IMG/VR virus record: IMGVR_UViG_3300029309_000092
Span: 1-41,834 of that record
Source of the DNA: a virus
DNA length: 41,834 nt
Strand: one strand, 5' to 3'
Position 1 is the stretch's first letter. Every line of letters starts with the position of its first letter. The notes under the pieces are model-generated. The model saw only the letters and a program-made list of their open reading frames with translations. It was not told the DNA's origin and did no database searches. Positions 1-32,696 of the stretch are shown piece by piece. The position numbers and the translations under genes were made by a program.

Positions 1-77
1 ACATAAGAATTAAGAATACAAGCAATACAGGAACAGATGCTAATACTGGAAGTTCAGTCCACGGAGACCTCGCATAA
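1..77 (+). CDS. Tail-fibre-family paralogue, 3' end only
   Basis: This is the C-terminal end of a gene cut by the left edge of the window. Frame 3 is open from base 3 to a TAA at 75-77, and its last residues are SSVHGDLA. The ending matches the (H/M)GDLA terminus of five complete proteins downstream, so it is very probably a sixth member of that tail-fibre family. Its stop overlaps the ATG of the next gene (TAATG). The upstream part, where the conserved DSFNV core would lie, is missing from the window. Confidence 0.7.
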   Translation, partial: IRIKNTSNTGTDANTGSSVHGDLA

Positions 78-454: not shown

Positions 455-930
455 CAGTGACCCCTGAGTTTCAAGGCACACATCTATGGGACAGGCTTTG
501 CTGGGCCAAAGAAAACCTTGATGGTGTGCAGTCAGACTACCGTGTCGTGTACGAGGACAGCGTGGACGAGTGCGCTAAGATACTGGTGCCTGACCCTAAT
601 TGGATGGCGTGTGCATTGCAGGGCGGTATCCTGCCACCCGTAGAAGTATACTGGGAGTTGGCAAAGGACGAAGCCGAAGAGGGCTTTACCAAGCACACTC
701 GTGGTTATTTGCTCCACAACACCAAACCTGTCGAGGCGATGACCGAAGAGCAAGCCATTGAATATCTTATAATGAAGGATGTGCCACAGTCTGTGTGGCT
801 CGACTACAATAGCGGAAATAAGCCAAAGATGGTAATATGCCGCAAGGAACAACTTCCGGCGACTCGTGAGTGGCGCAATGCTTGGAAGATAAGTGAAGAC
901 CTAGCCACTGATGAAACTGTAGCCGCATAG
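451..930 (+). CDS. Conserved marine-phage protein of the tail-fibre region, function unknown
   Basis: A 159-residue soluble, acidic protein beginning MTVTPEFQGTHLWDRLCWAK. It has no signal peptide or membrane segment. It includes the segment VDECAKILVPDPNWM (residues 38-52) and a Pro-rich LPPVEVYWEL. I recall similar proteins encoded beside tail-fibre genes of marine phages but know no activity for them. Its ATG overlaps the stop of the preceding fibre gene (ATGA), and it is followed by a chaperone-like gene after ten bases. Its place between fibre paralogues suggests a role in fibre assembly or as a minor tail component, but this is inference only. Confidence 0.8.
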   Translation: MTVTPEFQGTHLWDRLCWAKENLDGVQSDYRVVYEDSVDECAKILVPDPNWMACALQGGILPPVEVYWELAKDEAEEGFTKHTRGYLLHNTKPVEAMTEEQAIEYLIMKDVPQSVWLDYNSGNKPKMVICRKEQLPATREWRNAWKISEDLATDETVAA

Positions 931-940
931 GAGAAACCTG

Positions 941-1312
941 ATGGCAACAACATATATCGTAGACAAGGACGGTAACCAGATTGATGCGTCAACCGCTACC
1001 GTTCCATCAGACCGTCACTTTCGTGGTGCGTGGTCGCTTTCTGGCACAGTCATTTCCGAGGACATGACAGCAGCCAAAGTAATCTTCAAGGACAAGATCC
1101 GTGAAGTACGCACACCACTGCTTGCAGCAGAGGACGTTGTGTACATGAAGGCTTTGGAAGCCGCTGATAGCACAGCACAGGCTGCGTCTGTAGCCAAGAA
1201 AAAGGCACTGCGTGATGCACCTGCTGCTTCTGCAATCGGTAGCGCAGACACGATTACCAAGCTCAAGGCAGCTTGGGATACAAGCGTACTTGGCGACAGC
1301 CCATACGCATAG
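941..1312 (+). CDS. Probable tail-fibre assembly chaperone-like protein
   Basis: A 123-residue protein. The N-terminal 45 residues resemble short beta-rich tail-associated modules (YIVDKDGNQID, then FRGAWSLSG). The C-terminal half is helical and charged, with KDKIREVRTPLLAAED and KKKALRDAPAA. A helical R-x-x-R-x-x-L-L-A pattern followed by LRD-(A/V)-P is typical of phage tail-fibre assembly chaperones and DUF4376-like proteins, so a chaperone for the neighbouring fibres is the best guess. A GGAG lies just before the ATG. The family assignment is from pattern memory and is not certain. Confidence 0.75.
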   Translation: MATTYIVDKDGNQIDASTATVPSDRHFRGAWSLSGTVISEDMTAAKVIFKDKIREVRTPLLAAEDVVYMKALEAADSTAQAASVAKKKALRDAPAASAIGSADTITKLKAAWDTSVLGDSPYA

Positions 1313-1323
1313 GGAGATAAGTC

Positions 1324-1722
1324 GTGGCACTGACTCAAGTAATAGGCGCAGGTATTGGTGCTGGTAACACTGTTACTGGTGAAGGTAGTGCCACGACATC
1401 TTTGCAGCAGGGGCTGGGAAAAGCATGGATAAATTTTCAACAGAAATCTAGTAATGTTGTGCGTGATTCCTTCAACCACTCCAGTTTCACAGATGGTGGG
1501 ACTGGAACCATGACTTTTACAATAACATCACTTATGAACAATATTAATTATTGTCATAGCGGAATGGCGGGAGAAGGTGGCAATAGTCAAGAATGTTTAA
1601 GTCAGTCTTACACCCAGACTGTGCCAACCACCGCTGCCGCAGAATATGTAAATGCTTATGCAAATACTGCATTAGAAGACCCTTCTTATGCTGGTAGGGT
1701 ATTACACGGAGACCTCGCATAA
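1324..1722 (+). CDS. Tail-fibre-family paralogue 2 (GDLA family), GTG start
   Basis: A 132-residue protein starting at GTG, with GGGAGATAAG just upstream. The shared core is visible as KAWINF, then RDSFNHSSFTDGGTG near residues 45-59, LMNNINY, and the ending LHGDLA. The N-terminus (MALTQVIGAGIGAGNTVTGEG) differs from the other members, but the segment GEGSATTSLQQGLGKAWINF closely matches GEGNSTTTNLQQGLCKVWINF in the 2581 gene. Such a mosaic of shared and divergent blocks suggests recombination between members. A fibre or receptor-contact role is inferred. Confidence 0.85.
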   Translation: MALTQVIGAGIGAGNTVTGEGSATTSLQQGLGKAWINFQQKSSNVVRDSFNHSSFTDGGTGTMTFTITSLMNNINYCHSGMAGEGGNSQECLSQSYTQTVPTTAAAEYVNAYANTALEDPSYAGRVLHGDLA

Positions 1723-2180
1723 TGCCATACATAGGTAAATCCCCAGAGTTCGGTGTTCGCAACCGCTTCCAGTATCAAGCTACGGCTGGTCAAACCAGCT
1801 TCAGCGGATCTGACGCTAATTCTCTGACGCTTACCTATAACGACAGCTTGTACATGGACGTATATCAAAACGGCGTTCTGTTGGTTCCGGGAACCGATTA
1901 TACGGCTACGACAGGCACAACCGTGGTGCTGGTTACAGGAGCCTCGCTCAACGACATCGTTGAGATGGTGGTCTACGATGTCTTTACCGTGGCTAACAGC
2001 TACACCAAGACGGACTCCGACACTCGTTACCCCTTCAAGGGCAACAACTCTATTATCCGTCTGAACGGTCAGACCATCAGCGCAGACATTACGATTGACA
2101 GCGATGAGAACGGTGTGTCGGCAGGGCCGATTACACAGAGTGCCACCGTCACTGTTAACGGATATTGGAGCATCGTATGA
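1722..2180 (+). CDS. Tail-fibre protein of the MPYIGKSP type
   Basis: A 152-residue beta-rich protein beginning MPYIGKSPEFGVRNRF, then a module with FSGSDANSLTLTY, MDVYQNGVLLVPGTDY and DIVEMVVYDVFTV. This N-terminal module is frequent in marine phage tail fibres, usually joined to long variable C-termini. Here the C-terminal part is short and ends in a small beta segment (NGQTISADITIDSDENG). It is probably a fibre or fibre-attachment subunit. It lies between two GDLA-family genes, with a TAATG junction at its start and an ATGA overlap at its end. Confidence 0.8.
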   Translation: MPYIGKSPEFGVRNRFQYQATAGQTSFSGSDANSLTLTYNDSLYMDVYQNGVLLVPGTDYTATTGTTVVLVTGASLNDIVEMVVYDVFTVANSYTKTDSDTRYPFKGNNSIIRLNGQTISADITIDSDENGVSAGPITQSATVTVNGYWSIV

Positions 2181-2581
2181 CTAGCGTGTTGAATGTAGAT
2201 ACGATTGCTGATAAGGCAGGCACGGGGCCGGTTGCGCTGACGAAGCAACAGGCGGCAAAGATATGGTCTAACTTTGACGGCACCACTAGCGGCATTACTG
2301 CTCGGGACAGCTTTAACGTATCAAGCATTGGAGACACAAATACTGGCACTTACACAATCAATCATACAAACGCTATGTCAAATAACGATTATTGCTGTGC
2401 TGTGATGGGACGAATGCAAAGAGGCACAAGCAATAGTGGTGCTGCAAACGGCATTGACTCATCTGACGGTGATTCAACAGTTTTAACAACTAGCCACATA
2501 ATAGCTTACATCAATGTTGCAACTACCGGCGATGCTGATGTGCCTATTGCTGGGTCTATGGTAATGGGAGACCTCGCATAA
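2177..2581 (+). CDS. Tail-fibre-family paralogue 3 (GDLA family)
   Basis: A 134-residue protein. I chose the ATG at 2177 because it overlaps the upstream stop (ATGA), has GGAG six bases before it, and gives MTSVLNVDTI, matching the MTS/MAS starts of its relatives. An in-frame TTG at 2165 is less likely. The core is present: KIWSNFDG, RDSFNVSSIGD, TGTYTINHTNAM, then a variable serine/asparagine-rich half and the ending VMGDLA. A role in the tail fibre is inferred from family and position. Confidence 0.85.
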   Translation: MTSVLNVDTIADKAGTGPVALTKQQAAKIWSNFDGTTSGITARDSFNVSSIGDTNTGTYTINHTNAMSNNDYCCAVMGRMQRGTSNSGAANGIDSSDGDSTVLTTSHIIAYINVATTGDADVPIAGSMVMGDLA

Positions 2582-2988
2582 TGGCAAGCATACTCAAAGT
2601 AGATACAATCACAGGGGTAGCCACGGCTGGGTCTATTGCAGTTACCGGCGAGGGCAACTCGACCACAACGAATTTGCAGCAGGGGTTGTGTAAGGTGTGG
2701 ATTAACTTTAATGGCACAGGCACAATAGCAACTCGTGACTCATTCAATGTTGCATCAATAACAGACGGTGGCACGGGTCTTTATACGGTCACTATTACTA
2801 ATGACTTTAATAACGATGATTACTCAACCGCAGGTGCAGCCGGAGAAGAAGATGACAGTGGGGGTAATCGCAGTCTTGGTTTGAGAGCAAGGGCTGCTGG
2901 TTCACAAAATCTTCGTGGTTTTAGGGATGGTGTTTCTGCTGACGACATGGCTGAGATGCAAATTCACATCATGGGAGACCTCGCATAA
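2581..2988 (+). CDS. Tail-fibre-family paralogue 4 (GDLA family)
   Basis: A 135-residue protein starting MASILKVDTI. It carries the clearest form of the array core: KVWINFNGTGTIATRDSFNV (about residues 38-57), ITDGGTGLYTVTIT, FNNDDY, and the ending IMGDLA. The second half (residues 80-120) is rich in charged residues and glycine and does not align with the relatives, as expected for a variable or receptor-facing region. Both junctions are TAATG or the equivalent, so translation is probably coupled along the array. Confidence 0.85.
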   Translation: MASILKVDTITGVATAGSIAVTGEGNSTTTNLQQGLCKVWINFNGTGTIATRDSFNVASITDGGTGLYTVTITNDFNNDDYSTAGAAGEEDDSGGNRSLGLRARAAGSQNLRGFRDGVSADDMAEMQIHIMGDLA

Positions 2989-3371
2989 TGGCTAGTGAAC
3001 TGAGAGTAAACACCCTGAAGGATGCTAGCGGGAACAACAGCGTGGCTACGTCAATTGTGTTTGGTGGCACGGCGAAGGCGTGGGCATCTATAAATGCTGG
3101 TGCAGAAAAAGACAGCTTTGGAGTTTCTAGTTTCGACGACAACGGAACAGGAAATCACGATATCAATTTTACTAACGCATTTAATAATGCCCTTTATAGT
3201 TGCTTACTCACTGCCAGTGATAATCCCGGCACAGCTAACGACTATGTAGCTGTCACAGTTAGTGGTTCTGTAGCGCCTGGTTCTTATAGGTATTACACAT
3301 ATCGTGCTTCCAACGCTACGCAAACAGACTTGCCTTACGTTAGCAGCGCATTTCACGGAGACCTCGCATGA
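2988..3371 (+). CDS. Tail-fibre-family paralogue 5 (GDLA family)
   Basis: A 127-residue protein beginning MASELRVNTLKDASGNNSVA, a start common in marine phage fibre proteins. The core is shortened: KAWASI, then KDSFGVSSFDDNGTGNHDI, FTNAFNNALY, and the ending FHGDLA. The NGTGT segment seen in the 2581 gene is missing. The following fibre gene overlaps the stop by four bases. The role is inferred as for the other members. Confidence 0.85.
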   Translation: MASELRVNTLKDASGNNSVATSIVFGGTAKAWASINAGAEKDSFGVSSFDDNGTGNHDINFTNAFNNALYSCLLTASDNPGTANDYVAVTVSGSVAPGSYRYYTYRASNATQTDLPYVSSAFHGDLA

Positions 3372-4441
3372 GTAAGGCAGCAGAACTCGCCGCACTGATT
3401 GGTTCGCAGTCGGCGTTGTCAGACAGGAACTTGATTATCAACGGTGCGATGCAGGTGGCACAGCGAGGCACAAGCAGCACTGGTCAGGGTGCATCTGACT
3501 TATTTCTTGTTGACCGCTTTCATCTAAATACCAACGGCAACTCTGCTGGCAGGTTTACTGTCACACAGGAATCTAATGGCCCAAGCGACATCCCTAATTC
3601 CTTAAAGCTGGCTTGCACCACAGCAGACACATCTATTGCGGCCAGTGAAAGGCTTTTCATTGAACAAAGGCTAGAGGGACAAAACCTCCAACGTATGAAA
3701 AAAGGCACCAGCGATGCACAGGCAATCACCGTGTCTTTTTATGTGAAAGGAAATGCAGCAGCCACATATGTGGTGGGTATCTTCGACAGTGACAACAGTC
3801 GTCAGATTGGCGCACAGTTTTCTGTGACGACAGACTGGAATAGAGTGTCTGTTACGTTTCCCGGTGATACAGGCGGCAGTCCACTAGATGATGACAATGC
3901 CGAAAGCCTGTCGCTTCGTTTTTATTTACATGCTGGCTCGACTTATACCGGCGGCACATTACAGACAACGTGGGATGCTACTGTAAATAACGAGCAAGTA
4001 GGTAGCGGCACTACTTCTTTCTTTGACAGCACTAGCCGCACGTTTTTCCTGACAGGAGTGCAGATGGAACTTGGCGAACAGGCCACGCCGTTCGAGCATC
4101 GGTCGTTTGGCGATGAGTTTATTAGGTGTCAACGCTACCATCAAAGATTTACGGGTGTAACCAATGGCCGTGTGGGGTTCGGCACAAAAACTAGTGCTAC
4201 TAATGCAAGATGTATTCTTCCCTTTAATACACCAATGAGAGCCACACCATCTCAAAGTGTTACTGGAACCCCTCGTTTTGAGACGGGTGCTGCTGCACAG
4301 AACGTATCAAGCATTAATACTTCGGGTGCAAATACTCTGTGCGGGAGTTTTGATGCAACCACAGCATCTGGCGGTTCGCAAAACAACCCCGGAGTCCTTG
4401 ACTTAGGTGACGGCGGCTACATTTTTGATGCGGAGTTGTAA
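3368..4441 (+). CDS. Tail fibre / receptor-binding-type protein
   Basis: A 357-residue protein with the N-terminal hallmark NLIINGAMQVAQRGTS (about residues 21-36), which introduces a jelly-roll-like carbohydrate-binding module in many phage fibres. That module runs to about residue 245, with a beta-rich body and the typical closing phrase GVQMELGEQATPFEHRS. The last 110 residues are a separate beta-rich, Ser/Thr/Asn-rich domain that is probably the variable tip. There is no signal peptide or membrane segment. It is the largest fibre protein in the cluster and may be the main receptor-binding subunit. Recognition is by pattern, not by search. Confidence 0.85.
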   Translation: MSKAAELAALIGSQSALSDRNLIINGAMQVAQRGTSSTGQGASDLFLVDRFHLNTNGNSAGRFTVTQESNGPSDIPNSLKLACTTADTSIAASERLFIEQRLEGQNLQRMKKGTSDAQAITVSFYVKGNAAATYVVGIFDSDNSRQIGAQFSVTTDWNRVSVTFPGDTGGSPLDDDNAESLSLRFYLHAGSTYTGGTLQTTWDATVNNEQVGSGTTSFFDSTSRTFFLTGVQMELGEQATPFEHRSFGDEFIRCQRYHQRFTGVTNGRVGFGTKTSATNARCILPFNTPMRATPSQSVTGTPRFETGAAAQNVSSINTSGANTLCGSFDATTASGGSQNNPGVLDLGDGGYIFDAEL

Positions 4442-8470: not shown

Positions 8471-10788
8471 TGAGCGTATACAACCGCAAAATGTTCAAGC
8501 CGCGTAACGCCCGTAACGCCCTGAATCAGTCGGCGGGTATACCTAGCGTGCAGAAGTTCCAGACCGGTGGCGCAGTCTCATCTAATCCTATTATGAGTGT
8601 GTTACGGGGGATGTTTACTCCCACTCCTGCTTTTAGACAATTACAGAATGCTGCATCCTCCGGTCAAGCAACGGCACCAACACCACAGGTTAAGATTCCG
8701 ACAACAGGACCGGCTTTCACAGGACCGCCAGCCAGTAGACGCGCACAATACAGGTTTACGCCTGGGGTTGCATCTGGAGTTGCTAGGGACATTCAACCAG
8801 ACGCATTAAGAAGAGCGCAAGTTGACGCTACCAAAGGAAGAATTTTTGGCAGTGAAGGAATTTTAGACGCGCTTTCTTTGAAAGGTGGTTTAAGTGGCAC
8901 TGTTGATCGAAGCACTCCGCAGACAGAGGCTGAACGTATTGCTCAACTTGCTAAATTAGGAGGAGCACAAGCGTATGATGCCGGCGCAGCAGCGTTGCAG
9001 GCACCTATGATGCTTGGTTATGATTTAGGCGCTGGACTCGCCGCAAGTGCAGATCAAATTACGCCAGAGTTTGCTCGTGAAGTTGCAAGCGGCAAATCAC
9101 AACTCTCCCCAGACCTGATTAAAGGCATCAACGCTGGATTGGTACAAGTTCCTCCCGTTCTCGCTAAAGCGATTGATGACGGCGACATCGTTGTACCTGG
9201 ACTGGATATCACTCGTGTTCAAGCTAAACCACTGCCCCCCGCAGTACAGGTTATGAAAGAACTCCCCGGCGCGCAGACTATCCGTGTTGGCGAAGAGGGT
9301 GCAGTCAGTAAAGGTCTGCCTGAAACAGCCGCAGAAAGAATGGCTAGAATTGCAATTGCTGATGCTGGTATGCAAACAGACATGGGGCCAGAAACAGTGG
9401 CGATGCTTGAAGAGCAGCGCCGGATGCAGGAAGCGCAACGCAACCTGCCAGAGGACGATTCAAAGAAGTCTGATGCTGTTACACCCCCCACTTCAAAACC
9501 CTCTGACGAAGAGAGGGAACAGGATAGAACTGATGAAATACTTGATAGTGAAACTCGTAGACAACAAAGTCAGACAGATACGATTGTTCCTAGAACACCG
9601 GAAGAAATAGAAACTATTATCAATAACGGCACTGAAGAAGAGCAGCAATCTGAGTTAAAACAACTGATGAACGAGTTTACTCAAAATGCTCCTCAATATG
9701 AAGGTGTCGACACGGGTTTAGCCATTGCAAAAATAGGTTTTGCTATGGCGGCTGGTAAAAGCCCAGACGCAATTCAAAACATTGCTACTGCTTTAAGTGA
9801 TGGAGCAGACATGTTGATAAAAGATAAAAGTAAAAGAGATGCCTTTAATCGTCAGGTTAAACTCTCTGCACTACAGTATGGTTTAAGTGAGATATCTAAA
9901 GATAAAGCTGCTAGACGTTCTTTAGAAAGTGAGTTTGTTGATTACGTTACAACAGAAAAAGTAACGTATAACGGTAAAACATATGCTCCTGACACTACCA
10001 TAACAGTCAGCAAAGCAGATATGAAGGACGGTAAATTACCTGAAGGACTTCAAAATGTCACAGTGTACAACGCTCAAATTGCAGCAACTGCTAGGCGTGA
10101 AATAGCTCACGCAAAGTCAATTAAAGATGCAATTGAAAAAGGCCGCATGAGCGTTGAGGCCGGCAACAAACTTCAGAATGAATACACTCAACTCGTTGAT
10201 AAAGCCATTGAATCTGAAGCTGCTAGAGCAATTTTTCAAAACGCTATACTTCGTGTCAACAAAACCGGAGAGGTTGTTGGACTTGGCCCTGCGTTAAAAT
10301 TAACAGGACAACAAGCCTTATCTTTATTCGGCATGAGTAGCGGTCATCAATCAACACTATCTGAATTTAAAACGGATTTGCGTGCAGGTTTGCAGCGTTT
10401 GGTTCCTGTTACACTTGGTAAGGATCAAGCAGCTAATTCAATATCTAACCGAGATGTAGACTTACTTGTTGAAGGATTTATCGCTGACGGAATATTAAAA
10501 GACGCTGGAGGCGGTAATTTTAGTTTGATTTTTAAAACAGAAGCAGAGTTAACAAAGTCTCTTCAAAATGGTTTAGGTAAGATTGAGGATTCTCAAGCCG
10601 GTTATTTAAGTCAGCTTCGAGATAAAGAAATATTACTTAGAAGTTCATACGCTCCTGGTGTAGGACAAGAATCTGGTCTATCTCTTGTTGGGAGTGCTTT
10701 AGCCAGAAAGCAAGAGGTGTTCGGCGGCGGCTTTGCTCCTCAAAAATATCAACAAGGTGATGACGGCATCTATAGACGAGTGAGCTAA
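8470..10788 (+). CDS. Large putative virion protein, function unknown; AT-richer than neighbours
   Basis: A 772-residue protein. The N-terminus is basic (MSVYNRKMFKPRNARNA) with a QKFQTGGAV motif (residues 27-35) like those in other late proteins here. Residues 35-280 are Pro/Ala/Gly-rich. Residues 310-400 are very acidic and hydrophilic and look disordered. Residues 400-700 are helical. No catalytic motif is evident. By eye, the DNA from about 8.6 to 10.8 kb is richer in A and T, with more A/T-ending codons, than the genes on either side, which suggests a different origin for this segment. An ejection or internal protein is likely from position. Confidence 0.75.
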   Translation: MSVYNRKMFKPRNARNALNQSAGIPSVQKFQTGGAVSSNPIMSVLRGMFTPTPAFRQLQNAASSGQATAPTPQVKIPTTGPAFTGPPASRRAQYRFTPGVASGVARDIQPDALRRAQVDATKGRIFGSEGILDALSLKGGLSGTVDRSTPQTEAERIAQLAKLGGAQAYDAGAAALQAPMMLGYDLGAGLAASADQITPEFAREVASGKSQLSPDLIKGINAGLVQVPPVLAKAIDDGDIVVPGLDITRVQAKPLPPAVQVMKELPGAQTIRVGEEGAVSKGLPETAAERMARIAIADAGMQTDMGPETVAMLEEQRRMQEAQRNLPEDDSKKSDAVTPPTSKPSDEEREQDRTDEILDSETRRQQSQTDTIVPRTPEEIETIINNGTEEEQQSELKQLMNEFTQNAPQYEGVDTGLAIAKIGFAMAAGKSPDAIQNIATALSDGADMLIKDKSKRDAFNRQVKLSALQYGLSEISKDKAARRSLESEFVDYVTTEKVTYNGKTYAPDTTITVSKADMKDGKLPEGLQNVTVYNAQIAATARREIAHAKSIKDAIEKGRMSVEAGNKLQNEYTQLVDKAIESEAARAIFQNAILRVNKTGEVVGLGPALKLTGQQALSLFGMSSGHQSTLSEFKTDLRAGLQRLVPVTLGKDQAANSISNRDVDLLVEGFIADGILKDAGGGNFSLIFKTEAELTKSLQNGLGKIEDSQAGYLSQLRDKEILLRSSYAPGVGQESGLSLVGSALARKQEVFGGGFAPQKYQQGDDGIYRRVS

Positions 10789-14147: not shown

Positions 14148-14590
14148 ACAAAGATCAGCTTCGTGAAGAGCTTGCAGAGGACGAAGGCTGCAAGTTTGAA
14201 ATCTACCTAGATCACCTCGGCCTACCTACATACGGGATTGGACATCTTGTGGTAGAGGATGATCCAGAACACGGTCAGGCCGTTGGCACGCCCGTCGATG
14301 AAGAGCGCGTGCGTCAGGTGTTCAGCCTAGATATCGCGTCCACGCTGGACGAGTGCAAAGTCTTGTACCCAGACTTTGACGATCTGCCAGAGGAATGTCA
14401 GTTGATCATCGCAAACATGATGTTCAACATGGGGCGTCCGCGTCTGTCAAAATTCAAGGGTATGAAGGCTGGCGTTGATGCACGGGACTGGAATCGTGCA
14501 GCTGACGAGATGGTAGACAGCCGCTGGTATGACCAGGTCACCAACCGCGCCAAGCGTTTGGTAGCGCGTATGAGAGCGTTGGCGGACTAG
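14144..14590 (+). CDS. T4-type lysozyme (glycoside hydrolase family 24)
   Basis: A 148-residue endolysin that should cleave the glycan strands of peptidoglycan. The catalytic triad has T4 lysozyme spacing: Glu14 in AEDEG, Asp23 in IYLD, and Thr29 in PTYGIGH (T4: 11, 20, 26). Further family marks are ANMMFNMG and the C-terminal WYDQVTNRAKRLVARM. Length is close to T4 lysozyme (164). There is no signal peptide, so it needs a holin for release; a holin-like gene lies at 41.0 kb. It is the last gene of the rightward block, and its stop shares CTAG with the polymerase stop on the other strand. Confidence 0.92.
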   Translation: MNKDQLREELAEDEGCKFEIYLDHLGLPTYGIGHLVVEDDPEHGQAVGTPVDEERVRQVFSLDIASTLDECKVLYPDFDDLPEECQLIIANMMFNMGRPRLSKFKGMKAGVDARDWNRAADEMVDSRWYDQVTNRAKRLVARMRALAD

Positions 14591-16485
14591 CCAACCTCAC
14601 CCCAGTTGTCACCTAGTTCCTGATCAACCTTACTGGGCACCTTCAGCGGTGTGCTGGTCTCCATGATCTCCGTGATTCTTGCGGCTTGCTTCTCGGACTC
14701 AACATTGAAACACAGTTCGTCATGCACGGTTAGGAGTGGCACCAGACCCTCCTTGTAGCACTCTGCCATAGCAACCTTGGTTTGATCCGCCGCAGAGCCT
14801 TGTATAAGCCTGTTGAGCGCCTTGTAAGTAAACGCGCGTCTCAGTATAGGCCCGTACTCCTTCTGCGCCTGCTCGAGCTTCATAGGCTTGCTATAGCCGA
14901 ATGTCTTTGGCTCCCACATGTCAAACCGGCACAGACGCCCTGACATAGTACGGATCTTGCCGTGAGCACTTGCTTGTGCCGACACTAGGTCTGCCAAGCC
15001 TTTCACAAACGGCACCTTCTCGTGATACTGCGCCAACAGTGCCTTGGCCTCGTCCTTGGATATGTCCATGGTGTGGGACAGCTTGCCTACGCCCATGCCA
15101 TACATGATGCCCAGATTCACGGTCTTGGCCTGCTTGCGACTGATGTTCGCCATATCGGCTACCATCTGGTGGAAGTCGGCATCACCCTTGTGATACTCGT
15201 CCACGACGCTGTCGATCATCGGACTCTTGTACTTGGCGCCCATGCTTGCACAGTAGTGGACAAGGAGCCTTGGCTCTTGGCTTGAGTAGTCAAAGCTACC
15301 CCACTTACAGTCGTCGTCAGGAATGAACAGACCACGGATCATGGCCTTGATCTCTGGATCCCGCGCCGGAATCTGTTGAAGATTGGGGTTGCTTGAGGAG
15401 AACCGCCCAGTGACAGTGCCGCCATCATCAGACCGTAGCTGATGAAACTCGCAGTGGATGCGCCCCTTGTGGGCGAACTTCAGAATGTTATCAATGAATG
15501 TATTGCTGGCCTTATCTAGTTCACGAAGCCTAAGTATCTTTGCCGCAACTGGATGCGAACAGGCTTGCAGGAATGCCTTGGTAAAGGATGGCTGTCCGTT
15601 GTTCTCTGTCCGCTCATAGTACAGGTTGTGATGATCAAAGACGGACGCCACGCTCTTGGCTACCCACGGTTCTACGCTCACGCCCGTCTCATGCTTGATG
15701 TCTGCAATCAGATCCTGCTTGAGACCAATTAGCTTTTTCTTTGCCGCCTCGGCACCATCAATGTTTACCTTTACGCCCTTCTCACGCATGTCCAACAGGA
15801 CGGGCAACAGCGAAGTCTCCAGATTGAACACATCCATAAGAGTCTGTTCTTTGAGTCCGACATGCATCATGTTCCACAGCTTGAGCGTCAGCTCTGCATC
15901 CTTCTCGGCATACGCCCCCACGAATCGTGAGTTGAGCCGCCACATCTCCCCCTTGGGATCGAAGCCATGATCCGCCGCCGCAGCGCGGAGTGTTCTCTCA
16001 TCCTTGCGCTCGTCTAGATAATCTTTAGCCAGACTGTTGAGGCTGTAGCTGAACCGGTTCTCGTTCAGTAGTGGCGCCGCTACCATCGTGTCAATGATCG
16101 TGCCTTGGATCTTGACCCCTGCCCACCGAAGCCAGCCAGCATCATAGGTGGCGTTGTGCATAACCTTGGGGATGTCAGGCGTAGCAAGCTGGTCAGCCAG
16201 CCACTTCATGACCTTGTTCTGCGGGATGTTGCCCCCGCCCTCGTGAGCAATGGGGTAGTAGCCTACGAAGTCACCAGCCGCTACCGCTACACCTACGATG
16301 AAGCCGTCATCACGCGCCCACCCTGGTCCCAAGGACATCAGGTTCGGATCGTTGGTCTCAAGGTCGATGGCAATGAACTTGCTGTTTCGCAGATCAGGAA
16401 ACACCTCCGGCGGCACCCAGTCCTTCTCGATGGTGTCCAAGTCCATACGGTGCAGAAAGCTGATCTGACTACTTTCCTTTGCCAT
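14587..16485 (-). CDS. polA: Family A DNA polymerase with 3'-5' exonuclease
   Basis: A 632-residue replicative DNA polymerase. The exonuclease domain has AIDLETND (Asp41/Glu43), HNATYDAGWL and YAEKDAELTLKL. The polymerase domain has motif A FDYSSQEPRLLVHY, motif B RKQAKTVNLGIMYGMG and motif C LLTVHDELCF. There is no 5'-3' exonuclease domain, as usual for phage PolA. The motif B residue aligning with E. coli Phe762 is leucine; in viral PolA this site varies between Phe, Tyr and Leu and has been linked to polymerase behaviour and phage lifestyle. It is the last gene of the replication operon, and its ATG lies inside the end of the DUF6378-like gene. Confidence 0.95.
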   Translation of the reverse strand: MAKESSQISFLHRMDLDTIEKDWVPPEVFPDLRNSKFIAIDLETNDPNLMSLGPGWARDDGFIVGVAVAAGDFVGYYPIAHEGGGNIPQNKVMKWLADQLATPDIPKVMHNATYDAGWLRWAGVKIQGTIIDTMVAAPLLNENRFSYSLNSLAKDYLDERKDERTLRAAAADHGFDPKGEMWRLNSRFVGAYAEKDAELTLKLWNMMHVGLKEQTLMDVFNLETSLLPVLLDMREKGVKVNIDGAEAAKKKLIGLKQDLIADIKHETGVSVEPWVAKSVASVFDHHNLYYERTENNGQPSFTKAFLQACSHPVAAKILRLRELDKASNTFIDNILKFAHKGRIHCEFHQLRSDDGGTVTGRFSSSNPNLQQIPARDPEIKAMIRGLFIPDDDCKWGSFDYSSQEPRLLVHYCASMGAKYKSPMIDSVVDEYHKGDADFHQMVADMANISRKQAKTVNLGIMYGMGVGKLSHTMDISKDEAKALLAQYHEKVPFVKGLADLVSAQASAHGKIRTMSGRLCRFDMWEPKTFGYSKPMKLEQAQKEYGPILRRAFTYKALNRLIQGSAADQTKVAMAECYKEGLVPLLTVHDELCFNVESEKQAARITEIMETSTPLKVPSKVDQELGDNWGEVG

Positions 16486-18614: not shown

Positions 18615-18829
18615 CCGTCTTCTCTGTCGCGTGGACGAGACTCAAGCCAATGCTCTACCTCTGTCCGTAGCCAGCGGGTTGTGCTGTTCTTCTCGTTCTC
18701 AGGGCCGAGCACGACTGGTTTGGGGAAATGTCCTTCGTCTACCCACCGGTAGATCGTTGAACGCGCCACACCAAGCCATTCGACTACATCGCCCACTTTG
18801 AGATACCGTTCATCAGAAGGGTATGTCAT
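18611..18829 (-). CDS. AlpA/MerR-type helix-turn-helix protein
   Basis: A 72-residue DNA-binding protein: YLKVGDVVEWLGVARSTIYR (helix-turn-helix, about residues 9-28), then WVDEGHFPKPVVLG and RWLRTEVEHWLESR. This is the AlpA / excisionase-family winged-helix pattern. AlpA-like proteins regulate transcription or help recombination. With no integrase in the window, a regulator or replication accessory role is more likely than excision. It overlaps the primase gene by 17 bases and the helicase gene by four. Confidence 0.85.
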   Translation of the reverse strand: MTYPSDERYLKVGDVVEWLGVARSTIYRWVDEGHFPKPVVLGPENEKNSTTRWLRTEVEHWLESRPRDREDG

Positions 18830-20345
18830 TTTCTATCTCCTCTGTTGGTAGGTCGATTTCGGTGTTGTCAAACTCTGGTACAAACCAGACGCGAAGATTC
18901 TTCCATTGACCAGTATCTTCGTCTTTAAACTTGTAGGTGGTGTTGCAGTCATGCCCACCATTCATGTCCTTGAGGCGCTGCTGGATTTGTGGACGCTTCA
19001 GTTCGCGGAATCCGCGATTGCGTAGAAACTCCATCAGTCCCTTAATCGTGAACATCGTCATGTCATTCTCTGTCCACGGCTTGCCAATCGTCATCTCTTG
19101 CGGTGATCGCGCCCGAATCCTGCCAGTGCAGTAAACCTCAACCAGTTCTTCAAACTGACCTTTGATCGTTAATTCTTTGGGCACCTCAATGTGTGTGGCC
19201 GTCTCAAGCATCCGGTTCACATACTCCTGCCAATCCGGCGCCTTCATGATTGGCGGCATGACATCAAGCTGCTCCATACATGCACGTTGGAACTGCAAAG
19301 GCATTTGTAACTGTTCGGTGGACAACTCCAGCCGCTTGCCATCAACATCCAGAAAGTACAGGCGCGGCTCTGACTTTTGTATCGTGAGTCCGGTAATACC
19401 AGGCATCGAGCCGTTCTTGCCTATGCCATACTTGGCTTGCCGACAGGCCGTCTTATCACAATGACTGCCCATGGGTTCGTCCTTGCAGAGATACCCATAG
19501 TCCTTCTTCTTGTGCTGGTTCTGGATTGTGACGATCTCACTGGCAGGCAATGATGGTTTGCAATACTTTTGATTCCACGATTCAAGGGTACGTTCCCACG
19601 AATCTGGATTCATCATCTTCGCGGCCACCGCCGCATGAAACATGACTTTGTTTCTTGTGCCGTCTGGCACAGAGGTTGCGAACATGATCCGCAAGCATGG
19701 CGGCATTTCGCGAAGTTCGTCATCATCGGTCGAAAAATCTAGCTTGCGAAGATCCTCTAACGTGACCTTTTTACGCTCAACCTCTTTAAGAAACGACTCA
19801 AGTGATAACTCATCCCCCTTCTGATTTATCGCATAACGTAATGTATTATCTGCCGCGAAGTACGGCAGGTTAATGAAGTTGCCGACATCACCACGCTCGG
19901 CAAGAATCTTGTTTTGTTTTGGAAACACCTCACAGCCGCCGTAACCGAGTACGGCAGCGAACTCCATCAGGTGGTCACGCATATCTGTTGCACTAATCCA
20001 GTCTCGCATAAACAAGAACAGATGTGCCCCGCCTGACTTAGAACGGCAAACAACGAGTGGTAGCTTAAAACGGCGGCACTTCTTCAAGATGGCTAGGTGG
20101 TCAACCGGATATGTATCAATGTCTAATGCACCAAACTTGCACATGTTCTGACTATTGATCGGAATCGAACCAACCCCATGTTCGCCCTGCAAATGGCTGT
20201 CGATCAAATGCTTGGTCAACGGTTCACGGACGATGAAACTCTTTGCCTCTGTCTTACCGTTCTTCCTAACGTCACCTACTGTTGTTTGACCATGTGCAAC
20301 GCTGGAGCCTTCAAAGACCGCAGCGAACCGGTCAACTAATGTCAT
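18813..20345 (-). CDS. Archaeo-eukaryotic-type primase (TOTE/AEP family) with SSB-like DIPF tail
   Basis: A 510-residue primase. I chose ATG 20345, six bases after GGAG; an in-frame GTG just before it is too close to that site. The AEP domain has FGALDIDTY (Asp75/Asp77 metal site) and SKSGGAHLFLF (residues 102-112), matching the archaeo-eukaryotic primase of TOTE-type elements. A Cys cluster (CKDEPMGSHCDKTACRQAKYG, about residue 295) may bind metal. The C-terminus ends EIENDIPF, resembling the acidic DIPF tip of bacterial SSB. It should make primers for the phage polymerase. A terminator lies between it and the upstream SSB-like gene. Confidence 0.9.
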   Translation of the reverse strand: MTLVDRFAAVFEGSSVAHGQTTVGDVRKNGKTEAKSFIVREPLTKHLIDSHLQGEHGVGSIPINSQNMCKFGALDIDTYPVDHLAILKKCRRFKLPLVVCRSKSGGAHLFLFMRDWISATDMRDHLMEFAAVLGYGGCEVFPKQNKILAERGDVGNFINLPYFAADNTLRYAINQKGDELSLESFLKEVERKKVTLEDLRKLDFSTDDDELREMPPCLRIMFATSVPDGTRNKVMFHAAVAAKMMNPDSWERTLESWNQKYCKPSLPASEIVTIQNQHKKKDYGYLCKDEPMGSHCDKTACRQAKYGIGKNGSMPGITGLTIQKSEPRLYFLDVDGKRLELSTEQLQMPLQFQRACMEQLDVMPPIMKAPDWQEYVNRMLETATHIEVPKELTIKGQFEELVEVYCTGRIRARSPQEMTIGKPWTENDMTMFTIKGLMEFLRNRGFRELKRPQIQQRLKDMNGGHDCNTTYKFKDEDTGQWKNLRVWFVPEFDNTEIDLPTEEIENDIPF

Positions 20346-20357
20346 CACTTACTCCGC

Positions 20358-20397: not shown

Positions 20398-21213
20398 TTA
20401 GAAGGGGATATCTTCGTCCGTTGGCATCTGCGCCCCAGGAGCGGAGTCACTGACTGGTGCCTCTTCCTGCTGGGCCTTTGCCTCACCCTTCATAACCGAT
20501 TCGCGGAACGCCTTGGCTTCCATGAACAGGCTCTTGTCCTGCACCAAACCGACCTTTTCGACGGCCCAGTTGTACCAAGTACGCATCTCACCCTCGACGG
20601 TCTTAGACTCCTCAACCACCGTGAGCTTCCACATGGTGGCGAACAGAGCCGGTGTTCTCATGACACCCTTGCCGTCTTTGATTTTCTGCATAGCAATCTG
20701 GGTCTTCCAGCGGCGACTGACCTTCAACCCCGTAGACTTGAAGTCCACGATGGCTGGCTCATACATGCCGTCCTCACCAAGGATCAGACAGAAATGCTGA
20801 TCGCTCTTAATGACCTCATTGCCGTTTGACAGAAACTCTTTGGCCCCTTGCCTTGTCGTTTGCGACAGATCTGGATCGTCGGGAGACCGCAGACCTATGA
20901 ACCCACCTCCTTGTTCACCTGGTGTGAACTCTGGATAGGTAGTGACTTGATAGCAAGGAATAACAGTGATGCCTTCCTCACCGTCCCAGATCTGACCCGA
21001 CACCGTGTTGAACACATCCCCTTGTCGTAAGTCAGGGATGTATTTCATGTCGCTTTTCTTGAGTTGCGGGGAAGTGCCCTGCGCTACGCGAACAAACGGA
21101 ATCTGTAGTTCGTCTGCCTCGTAGCTCGTGCCCTCACCGGCAGTCTCCAAGATGTCGTCCATCAGTTCGGCTGGTACGCCAGCCTCTTCTTTCTTCGCAA
21201 GTTTTGTACTCAT
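20398..21213 (-). CDS. Putative single-stranded-DNA-binding protein with DIPF tail
   Basis: A 271-residue protein. After a disordered N-terminus it has LQIPFVRVAQGTSPQLKKSD, DVFNTVSGQIWDGEEGITVI and a beta-rich middle. A Gln/Ala-rich linker (residues 235-262) leads to the ending PTDEDIPF. The acidic DIPF tip is the protein-docking tail of bacterial SSB. Proteins of this pattern sit in phage replication modules and I take it as an SSB substitute, though OB-fold residues cannot be confirmed by eye. It overlaps the following coiled-coil gene start by four bases. Confidence 0.75.
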   Translation of the reverse strand: MSTKLAKKEEAGVPAELMDDILETAGEGTSYEADELQIPFVRVAQGTSPQLKKSDMKYIPDLRQGDVFNTVSGQIWDGEEGITVIPCYQVTTYPEFTPGEQGGGFIGLRSPDDPDLSQTTRQGAKEFLSNGNEVIKSDQHFCLILGEDGMYEPAIVDFKSTGLKVSRRWKTQIAMQKIKDGKGVMRTPALFATMWKLTVVEESKTVEGEMRTWYNWAVEKVGLVQDKSLFMEAKAFRESVMKGEAKAQQEEAPVSDSAPGAQMPTDEDIPF

Positions 21214-21815: not shown

Positions 21816-21844
21816 TTGACGGAACTAAACCGTGAGCCTATGTT
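21816..21844 (+). promoter_or_regulatory. Candidate sigma70-type promoter for the SNF2 helicase gene
   Basis: TTGACG at 21816-21821 and TATGTT at 21839-21844 are separated by exactly 17 bases. It lies in the 81-base divergent spacer between two operons and is followed by GGGAGG and the ATG at 21867. No equally clear promoter is visible for the leftward side of the spacer. Confidence 0.6.
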
Positions 21845-21866
21845 TAGACCATATGGGAGGACATGG

Positions 21867-23354
21867 ATGAAAGTCAACTACAAATTCAAAACGAAACCAT
21901 ATGCACACCAGGTCGAGGCGTTGGATCGTAGCGTTGACAAGGAATCCTTCGGGTTCTTTATGGAGATGGGTACTGGTAAATCAAAGGTCTTGATTGACAC
22001 CATCGCCTACCTTGGATCGCAGGCAATCAACCCGCTGGATCGGGTTGAGTTCGCTTTGATCATTGCACCCAAGGGCGTCTACCGCAACTGGATCAACAAA
22101 GAAATCCCAGAACATTTCTCAGATGAGATCGCGCACACCGTGTGCCATTGGCAAGCAAATCATACCAAGACGTATCGCGATAAAGTTCGGGCGTTCTTCA
22201 ACAGCCGAGACCTTGGCGTAAAGATATTCGTCATGAATGTGGAAGCGTTTTCGTCAGCCAAAGGTAAGAAGGCGGGGGAGTGGATGGCTGAGAAGTTCGG
22301 GCGCTTTGGCCTTATAGCCATTGATGAATCTACAACCATTAAGAACCATAAAGCCAAGCGCACCAAGTCCTTACTCAAGATTGCGGAGAAGTTCAAGTAC
22401 AGAAGACTATTGACAGGGTCGCCTGTCACAAAGTCACCCATGGATCTGTATTCACAATTTCAGTTTCTTGACCCCAGCATCTTGGGCTTCGACTCCTACT
22501 ATGCGTTCCAAGGACATTTTGCTGTTCTGCAAAAGCGCACCATGGGCGCACACAGCTTTCAACAAATCCTTGGCTACAAAAATCTGGAGGAGCTGACTAT
22601 GCGTATTGACCCACACACATATCGAGTCTTGAAGAAAGACTGTCTGGACCTGCCGGAAAAGACCTACACCGTGCGTCATGTGACCCTGACCACGGAACAA
22701 GTCCGCATGTATAAAGAGTTGCAGGAGTTTGCCATTACACTGCTAAAAGACGACAAGCTGGTTAGTACACCGCAGATGATCACGCAGATGCTGCGCCTAC
22801 AACAGGTGCTGTCGGGTCATGTCAAAACAGATGATGGTGAACTGCTTCAGTTACCCACTCAACGTCTGGCCGCGCTTATGGATTGCATTGAAGAAGTGTC
22901 TGGTAAGATCATCATCTGGTCGCGGTTCCGGTATGACATCGTCAACATCCGTAATGAACTGGCTAGCGTGTACGGCTCGGACTCGGTGGTCTCTTACTAC
23001 GGCGACACATCTGAACAAGACCGCCAGACCGCCATCGACAGATTCCAAGATGGCAACGCAAGATTCTTTGTAGCGAATCCAGCCACGGCTGGTTATGGCC
23101 TCACGCTGACCGAGGCCAACACAGTGATCTACTATGCTAATGACTTTAACCTTGAAACTCGGATCCAGTCCGAGGATCGCTGTCATCGTATTGGTCAGAA
23201 AAACCCTGTCACCTACATTGACCTAATCGCAGTCGGGACGATTGACGAGAAGATCGTCAAAGCTCTTCGTGATAAGATTGATATAGGTGCACGAGTATTA
23301 GGAGAGGAGGCTAGGGAATGGCTGAAGCTGACCCCAAAATCGCAGGCAGTATAG
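21867..23354 (+). CDS. SNF2-family / superfamily 2 helicase
   Basis: A 495-residue helicase. The ATG at 21867 is chosen because GGGAGG lies seven bases upstream; an earlier in-frame TTG falls inside the promoter. Motifs: MEMGTGKSK (Walker A, about 32-40), LIIAPKGVYRNW (Ia), AIDESTTIKN (motif II), LTGSPVTKSPMDLYSQ (III), FVANPATAGYGLTL (V) and QSEDRCHRIGQKNPVTYIDL (VI), the SNF2 signature. Such proteins translocate on DNA and occur in many marine phages with PolA. It begins a short rightward operon divergent from the other replication genes. Confidence 0.93.
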   Translation: MKVNYKFKTKPYAHQVEALDRSVDKESFGFFMEMGTGKSKVLIDTIAYLGSQAINPLDRVEFALIIAPKGVYRNWINKEIPEHFSDEIAHTVCHWQANHTKTYRDKVRAFFNSRDLGVKIFVMNVEAFSSAKGKKAGEWMAEKFGRFGLIAIDESTTIKNHKAKRTKSLLKIAEKFKYRRLLTGSPVTKSPMDLYSQFQFLDPSILGFDSYYAFQGHFAVLQKRTMGAHSFQQILGYKNLEELTMRIDPHTYRVLKKDCLDLPEKTYTVRHVTLTTEQVRMYKELQEFAITLLKDDKLVSTPQMITQMLRLQQVLSGHVKTDDGELLQLPTQRLAALMDCIEEVSGKIIIWSRFRYDIVNIRNELASVYGSDSVVSYYGDTSEQDRQTAIDRFQDGNARFFVANPATAGYGLTLTEANTVIYYANDFNLETRIQSEDRCHRIGQKNPVTYIDLIAVGTIDEKIVKALRDKIDIGARVLGEEAREWLKLTPKSQAV

Positions 23355-23536
23355 ACGTTTTGATCGACTACAAGAAAGGTGGCCTGACATTAGAACAGGC
23401 CGTTGACCGTTTCAGGAAACTGACCGGCTTGACACCAGACATCGCTGAAAAGTTTTTACGGGGGTTAGGTAGAGACAATGTCGTTTCGCTTTCGGCAAAG
23501 AAATCAGTTCTTGAGTCAGAGTCGGCGGCGGAATGA
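23318..23536 (+). CDS. Small helical protein, function unknown
   Basis: A 72-residue protein with SIDVLIDYKKGGLTLEQAVDRFRKLTGL followed by PDIAEKFLRGL, predicted to form three or four short helices, like a UBA or small docking domain. It starts inside the SNF2 gene (37-base overlap) with GGAGG upstream. Translational coupling suggests a SNF2 partner, but I do not recognise the family. Confidence 0.7.
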   Translation: MAEADPKIAGSIDVLIDYKKGGLTLEQAVDRFRKLTGLTPDIAEKFLRGLGRDNVVSLSAKKSVLESESAAE

Positions 23537-23715
23537 TCTGGCTCCTCGTCCTAGTGATCGCTGTGGAGACCGACAAGATCGAGACAAAGATTCTATCGGG
23601 GTTCCCAACGATAGAGGATTGCCATCTGGCAGCTTACACGATTCTTTGGGACAAAATGCCGATGAATCAGGAGGCGCTGTGCATCAGGACGGAGACGAAA
23701 CGTGATGAAAGATGA
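23533..23715 (+). CDS. Small exported protein with two cysteines
   Basis: A 60-residue protein with a hydrophobic N-terminus (MIWLLVLVIAVETD), resembling a signal peptide or anchor, then FPTIEDCHLAAYTIL and ALCIRTETK. The F-x-x-I-x-x-C plus later C-(I/V) layout is shared with the proteins at 24999-25202 and 40776-41003. A periplasmic or envelope location with a disulfide is inferred. ATGA overlap with the preceding gene. Confidence 0.65.
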   Translation: MIWLLVLVIAVETDKIETKILSGFPTIEDCHLAAYTILWDKMPMNQEALCIRTETKRDER

Positions 23716-23890
23716 CGACATCATACAAAGGCGGCTGGACGCAGGCATGTGTCCACGCTGCTCGTCTCATACTTTAGAAGAACGCCGGTTTGGTTCTAAG
23801 TGTCGTATGTGTGGTCTTGTTATCGGGGAATCACGCGACAAAGAAGACTACGACTTTGACACCACCAACGAGACGGGGTCGTTGTCGTGA
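23705..23890 (+). CDS. Small zinc-ribbon protein
   Basis: A 61-residue protein with two Cys pairs, CPRC and CRMC, 15 residues apart (MCPRCSSHTLEERRFGSKCRM), a classic zinc ribbon, followed by an acidic tail. A GTG three bases earlier (23702) has better spacing from GGAG and may also be used. Zinc ribbons of this size usually bind DNA, RNA or RNA polymerase. It overlaps the previous gene and is followed directly by the mini-ORF. Confidence 0.7.
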   Translation: MKDDDIIQRRLDAGMCPRCSSHTLEERRFGSKCRMCGLVIGESRDKEDYDFDTTNETGSLS

Positions 23891-23940
23891 TCATTGACGA
23901 GATCATGCGTGAACCGGAGCAGCTGAGTTTGTTCCAATGA
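23887..23940 (+). CDS. 17-codon mini-ORF with a beta-clamp-binding motif
   Basis: GTG 23887 overlaps the upstream TGA (GTGA), as do many start-stop junctions in this genome. The product is (M)IIDEIMREPEQLSLFQ. QLSLF fits the bacterial beta-sliding-clamp-binding consensus QL(S/D)LF exactly and lies at the C-terminus. No GGAGG is visible upstream, so expression would depend on coupling. It is the last ORF before a terminator. It could be a peptide that binds or blocks the host clamp, or a chance short ORF. Confidence 0.45.
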   Translation: MIIDEIMREPEQLSLFQ

Positions 23941-23943
23941 AAA

Positions 23944-23961
23944 GGGCGGCTCACGCCGCCC
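23944..23961 (-). terminator. Terminator between convergent operons
   Basis: GGGCGGC (23944-23950), loop TCAC, GCCGCCC (23955-23961). Four A precede it on the plus strand, giving a TTTT tail for leftward transcripts ending at 23967. The plus side (GATTCTTATT) is less U-rich but could also act. It separates the rightward SNF2 operon from the leftward accessory operon. Confidence 0.8.
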
Positions 23962-23966
23962 GATTC

Positions 23967-24188
23967 TTATTCCGAAAAGTTAGGTCCGGTAAATTCAAAC
24001 CCAAAGTCATCAACACTATCAATATGCTCAATGACCTTCTTGCGAACCTCCTCCCTTAATGCATCCTTCCAGTGCATATTAGCCTCGGAAAAATCCACAA
24101 CTACTTTGAGTGGAATCGAAACATCGTATTCAAATGTTCCGCCATACGCTTGCAGTTCTTCTTCCTTGGTGAAACTAGCGTCACTCAT
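23967..24188 (-). CDS. Small protein, function unknown
   Basis: A 73-residue acidic protein: ASFTKEEELQAYGGTFEYDV then LKVVVDFSEANMHWKDALRE, probably one beta-alpha domain. It overlaps the AT-hook gene upstream by four bases and is the last gene of the long leftward operon before the terminator. No family recognised. Confidence 0.7.
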   Translation of the reverse strand: MSDASFTKEEELQAYGGTFEYDVSIPLKVVVDFSEANMHWKDALREEVRKKVIEHIDSVDDFGFEFTGPNFSE

Positions 24189-24424
24189 TTCTTGCTCCTT
24201 GTTGGTTTGTTCTTACTGCCCTTCGGCCTGCCCCGCTTCTTTGGTGCGGGTTTCTTGGGTGCCGTCTTCTTGGGTGCCGGTGCTTGACCCCCGACCCACG
24301 CTTCATTGAACGTCGGAGTCTTCTTGTCGTCGCCGACCAGCCGCCCTCGATCATCTCGCGCGCGCTCCGGTTTGGATTCGGTGTAGAACATCGGAAAGAA
24401 TGTTTTCAGAAACCTCTTCATCAT
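24185..24424 (-). CDS. AT-hook, lysine/proline-rich DNA-binding protein
   Basis: A 79-residue protein. The C-terminal 30 residues are a PAPKK repeat (APAPKKTAPKKPAPKK) leading to KRGRPKGSKNK, an AT-hook (RGRP core) on a histone H1-like basic tail. AT-hooks bind the minor groove of A/T-rich DNA. The N-terminus (MKRFLKTFFPMFYTE) is short and aromatic. It is one of three neighbouring proteins with RGRP, and overlaps its neighbours by four bases each way. Confidence 0.75.
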   Translation of the reverse strand: MMKRFLKTFFPMFYTESKPERARDDRGRLVGDDKKTPTFNEAWVGGQAPAPKKTAPKKPAPKKRGRPKGSKNKPTRSKK

Positions 24425-24603
24425 GCAGACTTCTCCCTTGTCTGTTGGTATGCGTCCTTGATCAGGACGGCTAGTTGCCTTGCGATTGTCCGGTCTTCAG
24501 CCTTCGACAGCTCGCGGATCATCTCATAGATTTCCATCGGCACGGCTACGTTGCGAAACGCCGCCTTTTTTTCGACTGTTGGTCTTCCGCGTTTTGCTGC
24601 CAT
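24421..24603 (-). CDS. Ribbon-helix-helix-like protein with N-terminal AT-hook
   Basis: A 60-residue protein starting MAAKRGRPTVEKK, an AT-hook, followed by FRNVAVPMEIYEMIRELSKA and TIARQLAVLIKDAYQQ, the strand-helix-helix layout of Arc/CopG-type repressors. Such proteins bind operators as dimers, and the AT-hook would add minor-groove contacts. It starts immediately after the stop of the next AT-hook gene. It is a candidate transcriptional regulator of the operon. Confidence 0.75.
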   Translation of the reverse strand: MAAKRGRPTVEKKAAFRNVAVPMEIYEMIRELSKAEDRTIARQLAVLIKDAYQQTREKSA

Positions 24604-25009
24604 CTACTTGCCTCCGTTCTTTGGGCGTCCGCGCTTTCGGGCGGCCTTTGATTCGCGATACACCATCGACTCCCCGTCGTACTCCAGCCCCAGTTCGTCC
24701 ACCACCGCCACTAGGTTTGCGATCATCCTTAGATCGTTGTCCTCCAGCATGAACCGAATTGACTTTCCGCGAATCAGATTTAGCTGGTCGTTTACCAGCG
24801 ATACCATAGACATGCTTATGCCTCCTTACCTCTACCTCAATGTAGTAACCATGGTGACCGTCTCCCCTTCTGGGGATGCTGGCTTGTTCGTCCAGTTCGT
24901 CAATCACCGCCTCAAGTTCGGTGGGTTTGCACACCACCTCTTTCACAATCTTTAACCTATTAGAATATAGGGTAATTGTGAAATCTAAGATTTTATTATC
25001 ATTCTTCAT
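24524..25009 (-). CDS. Small protein with long out-of-frame overlap; 3' limit uncertain
   Basis: The first 62 residues (MKNDNKILDFTITLYSNRLK, then LEAVIDELDEQASIP and HHGYYIEVEV) look like normal coding sequence. The frame then stays open for 99 more residues, running in another frame over the AT-hook gene at 24604-24813 and into the next. That tail is basic, Arg/Lys/Gly-rich and low in complexity, like a shadow reading of AT-hook DNA. The two other frames both meet stops near 24820, so the gene may really overlap, or an indel may have removed its stop. The first part is probable, the tail doubtful. Confidence 0.5.
   Translation of the reverse strand: MKNDNKILDFTITLYSNRLKIVKEVVCKPTELEAVIDELDEQASIPRRGDGHHGYYIEVEVRRHKHVYGIAGKRPAKSDSRKVNSVHAGGQRSKDDRKPSGGGGRTGAGVRRGVDGVSRIKGRPKARTPKERRQVDGSKTRKTNSRKKGGVSQRSRADGNL
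24604..24813 (-). CDS. Small protein with C-terminal AT-hook
   Basis: A 69-residue protein: VNDQLNLIRGKSIRFMLEDN, then LVAVVDELGLEYDGESMVYR, ending KAARKRGRPKNGGK, an AT-hook at the very C-terminus. AAGGAGG lies seven bases before the ATG, which supports this start, even though another ORF on the same strand runs through in a different frame. It is the third RGRP protein in a row. Confidence 0.7.
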   Translation of the reverse strand: MSMVSLVNDQLNLIRGKSIRFMLEDNDLRMIANLVAVVDELGLEYDGESMVYRESKAARKRGRPKNGGK

Positions 25010-32474: not shown

Positions 32475-32696
32475 TTAAGCTAAATCGCCGTGCCATTCTT
32501 CCTCGTACTTCCTTCTGGTGAAGGCTTTGACGAGGGTTTCACCAACGACGTGTCGCGTGACGTGGCCGTCACGCTCTGCGTCTTTCAACGTGTCGTTGGC
32601 AATCTTTGACCACGCATTGCGCATTTCCTTTGCGAACTCGTATTGTTCGCGGATGTTCAACTCGTGGAACTTATGCTTTCTAGGAAACAAAGTCAT
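32475..32696 (-). CDS. Small basic protein ending HGDLA
   Basis: A 73-residue protein: MTLFPRKHKFHELNIREQYE, FAKEMRNAWSKIANDTLKDA, and a C-terminus FTRRKYEEEWHGDLA. It is helical and charged. Its HGDLA end matches the fibre array, but with different codons (CAC GGC GAT TTA GCT), so DNA homology is not the cause. It is the first gene of the leftward block and has an SD-in-loop leader. Function unknown. Confidence 0.7.
   Translation of the reverse strand: MTLFPRKHKFHELNIREQYEFAKEMRNAWSKIANDTLKDAERDGHVTRHVVGETLVKAFTRRKYEEEWHGDLA

Follow-up and report, generated by a model that had tools for sequence, protein, structure and literature searches.

The beta-clamp-binding motif QL[SD]LF is known from Pol II, Pol IV and Hda (PMC11139829). 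In motifs of this type, position 1 is occupied by Q, position 2 by an aliphatic residue, position 4 by L or M, and position 5 or 6 by F, L or I; variation at position 3 and a terminal I or L are tolerated (PMC11139829). A phage enzyme has also been found associated with a sliding clamp. The alpha-glucosyltransferase of T4 co-purifies with the gp45 clamp (PMC13216743, confirming Sommer et al. 2004), and clamp binding is not the main cause of the dominance of this enzyme or of its share in glucosylation (PMC13216743).

We analysed a stretch of viral DNA of 41,834 nucleotides (IMG/VR virus record IMGVR_UViG_3300029309_000092), called the window hereafter, in which an ORF of 17 codons contains the pentapeptide QLSLF. 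This pentapeptide satisfies the clamp-binding rules (PMC11139829) and, when compared with the known motifs, matches the consensus exactly and, like those of Pol II and Pol IV, lies at the C-terminus or beside it. It differs from them by an extra Q and by its parent protein, which is neither a polymerase nor a repair factor. The window segment corresponds to the C-terminal end of a member of the PAPS-reductase-like family (PHROG 424 / PF01507), of which a full-length member in the related contig L003 matches both profiles. The gene that would have been deleted upstream of this segment is a member of the Mom-like family (PF25680; PHROG 1384), and the window reuses its start codon alone. If the tail of the parent enzyme does bind a clamp, the principle would be the same as for the T4 alpha-glucosyltransferase and gp45, namely a DNA-modifying enzyme of the phage that travels on a sliding clamp. 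The two cases would differ, however, in that gp45 is T4's own clamp, whereas here the partner would be the host DnaN, and in that the enzymes are unrelated.

The 17-codon ORF and the corresponding locus in relatives

Translation of the ORF (Table 1) gave VIIDEIMREPEQLSLFQ followed by a stop codon, confirming that the ORF and its QLSLF consensus, reported in a preliminary description of this DNA, are real. According to that description, the ORF ends with QLSLF; the motif is indeed present, and its position has to be corrected, since a CAA codon (Q) precedes the TGA and the motif is therefore penultimate, one residue before the C-terminus. The GTG start does overlap the upstream stop, sharing bases with the TGA of the zinc-ribbon-like ORF, and the 17-codon ORF is also, as had been described, the last one before a terminator-like hairpin (7 G-C pairs, -18.4 kcal/mol, z = -5.2). 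It is located on the same strand as the SNF2-type helicase gene, downstream of overlapping small ORFs. The PP-loop domain (PF01507 / PHROG 424) is absent from it.

Table 1. Features of the window around the 17-codon ORF (positions numbered from the first nucleotide of the window).
Feature	Position	Strand	Remark
SNF2-type helicase gene, head of gene series	21816..23354	+	phrog_62, E = 3.7e-124
Zinc-ribbon-like 62-aa ORF, left border of the variable slot	23702..23890	+	Weak zinc-ribbon matches, below Pfam cut-offs
17-codon ORF, probable remnant: start codon of the deleted Mom-like gene and last 14 PAPS-like codons	23887..23940	+	
GTG start overlapping the upstream TGA	23887..23889	+	Same GTG in L003 (8075) opens a 150-aa Mom-like gene
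Residual PAPS-like C-terminal coding sequence, IDEIMREPEQLSLF	23892..23934	+	Identical tail on intact proteins of relatives
QLSLF, match to beta-clamp-binding consensus QL[SD]LF	23920..23934	+	Consensus per PMC11139829
CAA TGA, probably from ancestral TAA TGA tandem stops, with gain of the terminal Q	23935..23940	+	TAATGA in L003, L004, L083, L088
Intrinsic terminator-like hairpin, scored on the minus strand too	23944..23961	+	Identical sequence after the PAPS-like stop in L003, L004, L083, L088

The helicase and the zinc-ribbon protein each served as query in a scan of IMG/VR, which yielded close relatives. When the window was aligned with L003, positions 23301-23890 were 91% identical to L003 7486-8078, and positions 23892-24603 were 95% identical to L003 9261-9972. 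The 1,182 bp found between these two segments in L003 (8079-9260), with the Mom-like and PAPS-like genes, are missing from the window, where a single extra base (23891) is present instead. In L003, the PAPS-like gene (8524-9306) scored 27.7 bits with PF01507 (PAPS_reduct; cut-off 22.5) and 162.8 bits with phrog_424. The 150-residue protein encoded directly 5' of it scored 31.7 bits with PF25680 (Mom) and 138.8 bits with phrog_1384, and its gene begins at the GTG overlapping the zinc-ribbon stop. Thus, 14 of the 260 codons of the PAPS-like gene are kept in the window, and only the start codon of the Mom-like gene.

In relatives, an intact PAPS-like protein of 260 residues, ending ...CGNFCDIEFTEIMHKDIDEIMREPEQLSLF, has IDEIMREPEQLSLF as its C-terminus, and IDEIMREPEQLS/NLF terminates such intact 260-aa proteins in numerous contigs, including L003, L004, L083 and L088. 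The identity of IDEIMREPEQLSLF, the colinear DNA and the terminator in common all point to the homology of the retained segment with the C-terminus of the family. Given the matching flanks and the gap between them, the ORF is the start of one lost gene set on the end of the next. We estimate at about 0.88 the probability that it is a deletion scar, in which the Mom-like start became the in-frame start of the final 14 PAPS-like codons. As judged from the alignment, the ORF is what is left of a member of the PAPS-reductase-like family and is itself no member.

In an ancestor, the order was the zinc-ribbon ORF, the Mom-like gene, the PAPS-reductase-like PP-loop gene and the terminator. Comparison with the relatives shows that about 1.18 kb was deleted, which brought the Mom-like start codon in frame with the final 14 PAPS-like codons, and that a TAA-to-CAA change added the Q to the tail. 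An origin by two deletions would look the same as one by a single deletion, as GTGATCATT of the window resembles the PAPS-like start ATGATCATT too.

Relatives differ in the genes that fill the slot bounded by the zinc-ribbon ORF on the left and by the terminator on the right. L002 and L003 contain the Mom-like and PAPS-like genes, L006 a C5 cytosine methylase, and L016 VUT, QueC and a DpdA-like gene; in L004, YhhQ/VUT, a DpdA-like transglycosylase (PHROG 887), a Mom-like and a PAPS-like gene are found together. From these annotations, the slot is a place for genes of DNA-modification type. For the DpdA-like proteins, an action on DNA is only presumed, because the annotation of PHROG 887 is queuine tRNA-ribosyltransferase. 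Pantoea phage MED16 encodes a distant member of PHROG 887 (35% identity), and its DNA is reported to carry 2'-deoxy-7-amido-7-deazaguanosine (PMC8306585).

C-terminal tails of the PAPS-like and DpdA-like proteins

In most lineages, the PAPS-like proteins end with QLSLF, QLNLF, QLRLF, QLQLI, QLKLL and similar sequences; some lineages end otherwise (PELMRGI, PNKLMEIA). Among the DpdA-like proteins, the tails include QMELAI, QLSLI, QLSLL, QQDLF, QTEMF and QLGLSF. Tails were counted when Q..[LM].?[FLI] occurred within the last 11 residues, the PAPS-like set being non-redundant at 85%. The pattern comes from the review of clamp-binding motifs but was applied once the tails were already known, and members of one family are related to each other, so that the counts are descriptive: the motif was present in 15 of 21 PAPS-like phage proteins (1.4 for shuffled tails, 0.15 expected from internal 11-mers) and in 20 of 44 non-redundant DpdA-like proteins (2.6 and 1.2, respectively). 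The formal motif is missing in about 30% of the non-redundant PAPS-like tails and in more than half of the DpdA-like tails. The strict form QL[SD]LF was found in 10 of the 2,061 distinct ORF C-termini of the related loci, all of PAPS or DpdA type, and never in internal 9-mers. A chance match of the motif was ruled out by homology, since in relatives the full-length protein has a conserved C-terminus to which QLSLF corresponds.

The QLxL[FLI] tail belongs to a marine PAPS-like clade and is absent from the prokaryote-genome homologues: about 75 bacterial and archaeal PAPS-like homologues with readable C-termini included none with a clamp-like tail. The motif was also absent from the distant PAPS-like proteins of Nitrincola, Verrucomicrobia, Rhizobium and Pseudoalteromonas phages, the tails of which differ, and no C-terminal clamp motif was detected in the other likely window genes that were checked.

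Two further observations were made on sequences of this kind. In the window, a 69-aa ORF of the minus strand (24604-24813) contains an internal QLNLI at residue 10. Varied clamp-binding-like tails (Q, L/M/F, then F/L/I/V) are carried by the DpdA-like (PHROG 887) proteins of many phages, as in L004 (6535-7221) and L293-L372, and PHROG 887 tails are worth study across the whole family.

The parent enzyme keeps a Q-L-x-L-[FLI] C-terminus across divergent phages, and the earlier reading of QLSLF as a clamp motif is, on these sequences, plausibly right when applied to this enzyme. We lean slightly towards the view that the preserved tail served the parent enzyme as a C-terminal beta-clamp-binding peptide. 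Through it, the enzyme would attach to the sliding clamp of the host and work on newly made phage DNA at the fork.

The tail could instead be a structural C-terminal element of which the likeness to a clamp motif is coincidental, an explanation that competes with the docking mechanism and not with the remnant origin. The AlphaFold2 model of the PAPS-like protein (39 sequences) had a mean pLDDT of 85.7, and its tail was predicted fairly confidently as a short helix (mean pLDDT about 80), which may pack on the enzyme and not act as a free peptide. Such a moderate confidence for the helix is in favour of a structural element, and so is the conservation of QLxL within the family, with K, R or Q often at position 3 and I or L often at the end. 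However, the known clamp motifs tolerate variation at position 3 and a final I or L, and related enzymes built on the same core lack the tail or have another sequence in its place. Moreover, a similar tail is found in the unrelated DpdA-like family, which uses the same slot; it is disordered in the model of this family (60 sequences), where the sole segment of at least 3 residues with a pLDDT below 50 is 223-228, QMELAI. A purely structural tail is, in our opinion, possible but somewhat less likely than not. With the PAPS-like model, Foldseek returned weak matches only, to CysH, TrmU and LarE (TM about 0.4-0.5).

Docking on the host clamp as a wider proposal

Beyond the parent enzyme, modification enzymes of unrelated folds that swap in this slot (PAPS-like and DpdA-like) might each have gained tails docking on the host clamp. 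New DNA would then be modified at the fork, some viral 'cysH' genes would encode such enzymes, and the window would hold a bare tail. We put this wider proposal forward tentatively and do not quite give it even odds. The phage itself encodes a family A DNA polymerase (phrog_17), which counts against assuming that the host clamp is present at phage forks. If the docking tails were real, they would suggest how modification enzymes reach new DNA ahead of restriction enzymes, they would extend the case of the T4 alpha-glucosyltransferase and gp45 to the host clamp, and they would be relevant to the question of whether viral 'cysH' genes concern sulfur metabolism.

In a literature search, no paper linking PAPS reductase, phage and sliding clamp was found. 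For DpdA, clamp and phage, the titles and abstracts of the matches were judged irrelevant, and in a Nature Communications paper on phage 7-deazaguanines the word clamp is absent from the main text. The remnant appears to be a product of ordinary decay, and clamp-like tails on two families of phage modification enzymes were without match in the literature searched.

The family A DNA polymerase is encoded on the minus strand (14587-16485) and starts with MAKESSQISFL. The pattern SQ[IL][ST][FYW][LI] at its start is kept in close relatives; it is similar to a clamp motif without being a match, position 4 being aromatic. The left end of the window in part resembles the tail-fibre genes of phage HMO-2011, and the polymerase of HMO-2011-type phages is atypical (PMC9038755).

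The short form as a possible gene of its own

The preliminary description had proposed an independent gene for a clamp-targeting micropeptide, with the GTG overlap as a sign of a real gene. Comparison with relatives did not bear this out. The overlap exists because the start codon of the deleted Mom-like gene was inherited, and relatives carry the full-length enzyme or other cassette genes in place of what is, in the window, a deletion remnant. Nor was the expected conservation observed, as in related phages the region is present without this ORF: in the viral contigs scanned, the exact 17-codon form had no second instance and the junction of the window was seen in one contig only. The tail was also searched as a DNA pattern in viral contigs, in a way that is insensitive to the upstream frame. 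The 34 stretches obtained were intact PAPS-like genes, genes cut by a contig edge and one different short form, in L098, with no clade of short forms among them. An independent conserved small gene was rejected, as no relative has the 17-codon ORF.

The other short form (L007, the same as contig L098) results from a different in-frame internal deletion. The Mom-like gene is kept there, and MIISWWSAG is joined to EFTEIMHKDIDEIMREPEQLSLF in an ORF of 32 residues with the same tail as in the window. A functional micropeptide, in which the short form would be kept as a useful stand-alone clamp binder, for example slowing the host replisome or occupying clamps, could draw support from this pair: the two deletions differ, yet each keeps an in-frame start and the complete tail, and both starts overlap the upstream gene, which makes translation plausible. 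In addition, peptides of the QLSLF type have a low micromolar affinity for the clamp (PMC11139829). However, two in-frame deletions out of two have about 1 chance in 9 of occurring anyway, so that this agreement is suggestive only; each short form comes from a single contig, the 34 tail-pattern matches contain no short-form clade, and the copy in the window has lost its own stop. We consider a selected micropeptide very unlikely. That the 17-residue remnant matters in any way is also unlikely; at most, it would be a short, weak clamp ligand made through translational coupling. An assembly artefact, in which the short ORF would join two strains, is hardly credible: the junction is indeed confined to one contig, but the parental sequences share too few bases at this point for a join by k-mer overlap, and the relatives matched by one flank are also those matched by the other, with comparable identity. 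Read as a deletion scar, the 17-codon ORF shows that a decay remnant can pass for a designed micropeptide.

The DIPF tails with which the ORF had been associated do exist on two neighbouring proteins, but nothing in this analysis links them to the 17-codon ORF. Both proteins are encoded on the minus strand and have C-termini like the C-terminal tips of SSB, ENDIPF for the primase (phrog_21866, 18813-20348) and DEDIPF for a phrog_2402 protein (20398-21213).

Finally, recurrent gene ends were observed in the tail-fibre-like region (1-3500), where at least five genes end with nearly identical DNA, CGGAGACCTCGCATAATG, giving a C-terminal (H/M)GDLA. This DNA includes GGAG, a possible ribosome-binding site for the next gene. 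The ORF at 32475-32696 on the minus strand, distant from the tail-fibre cluster, has an HGDLA end too, encoded by different DNA (GGCGATTTAGCTTAA).
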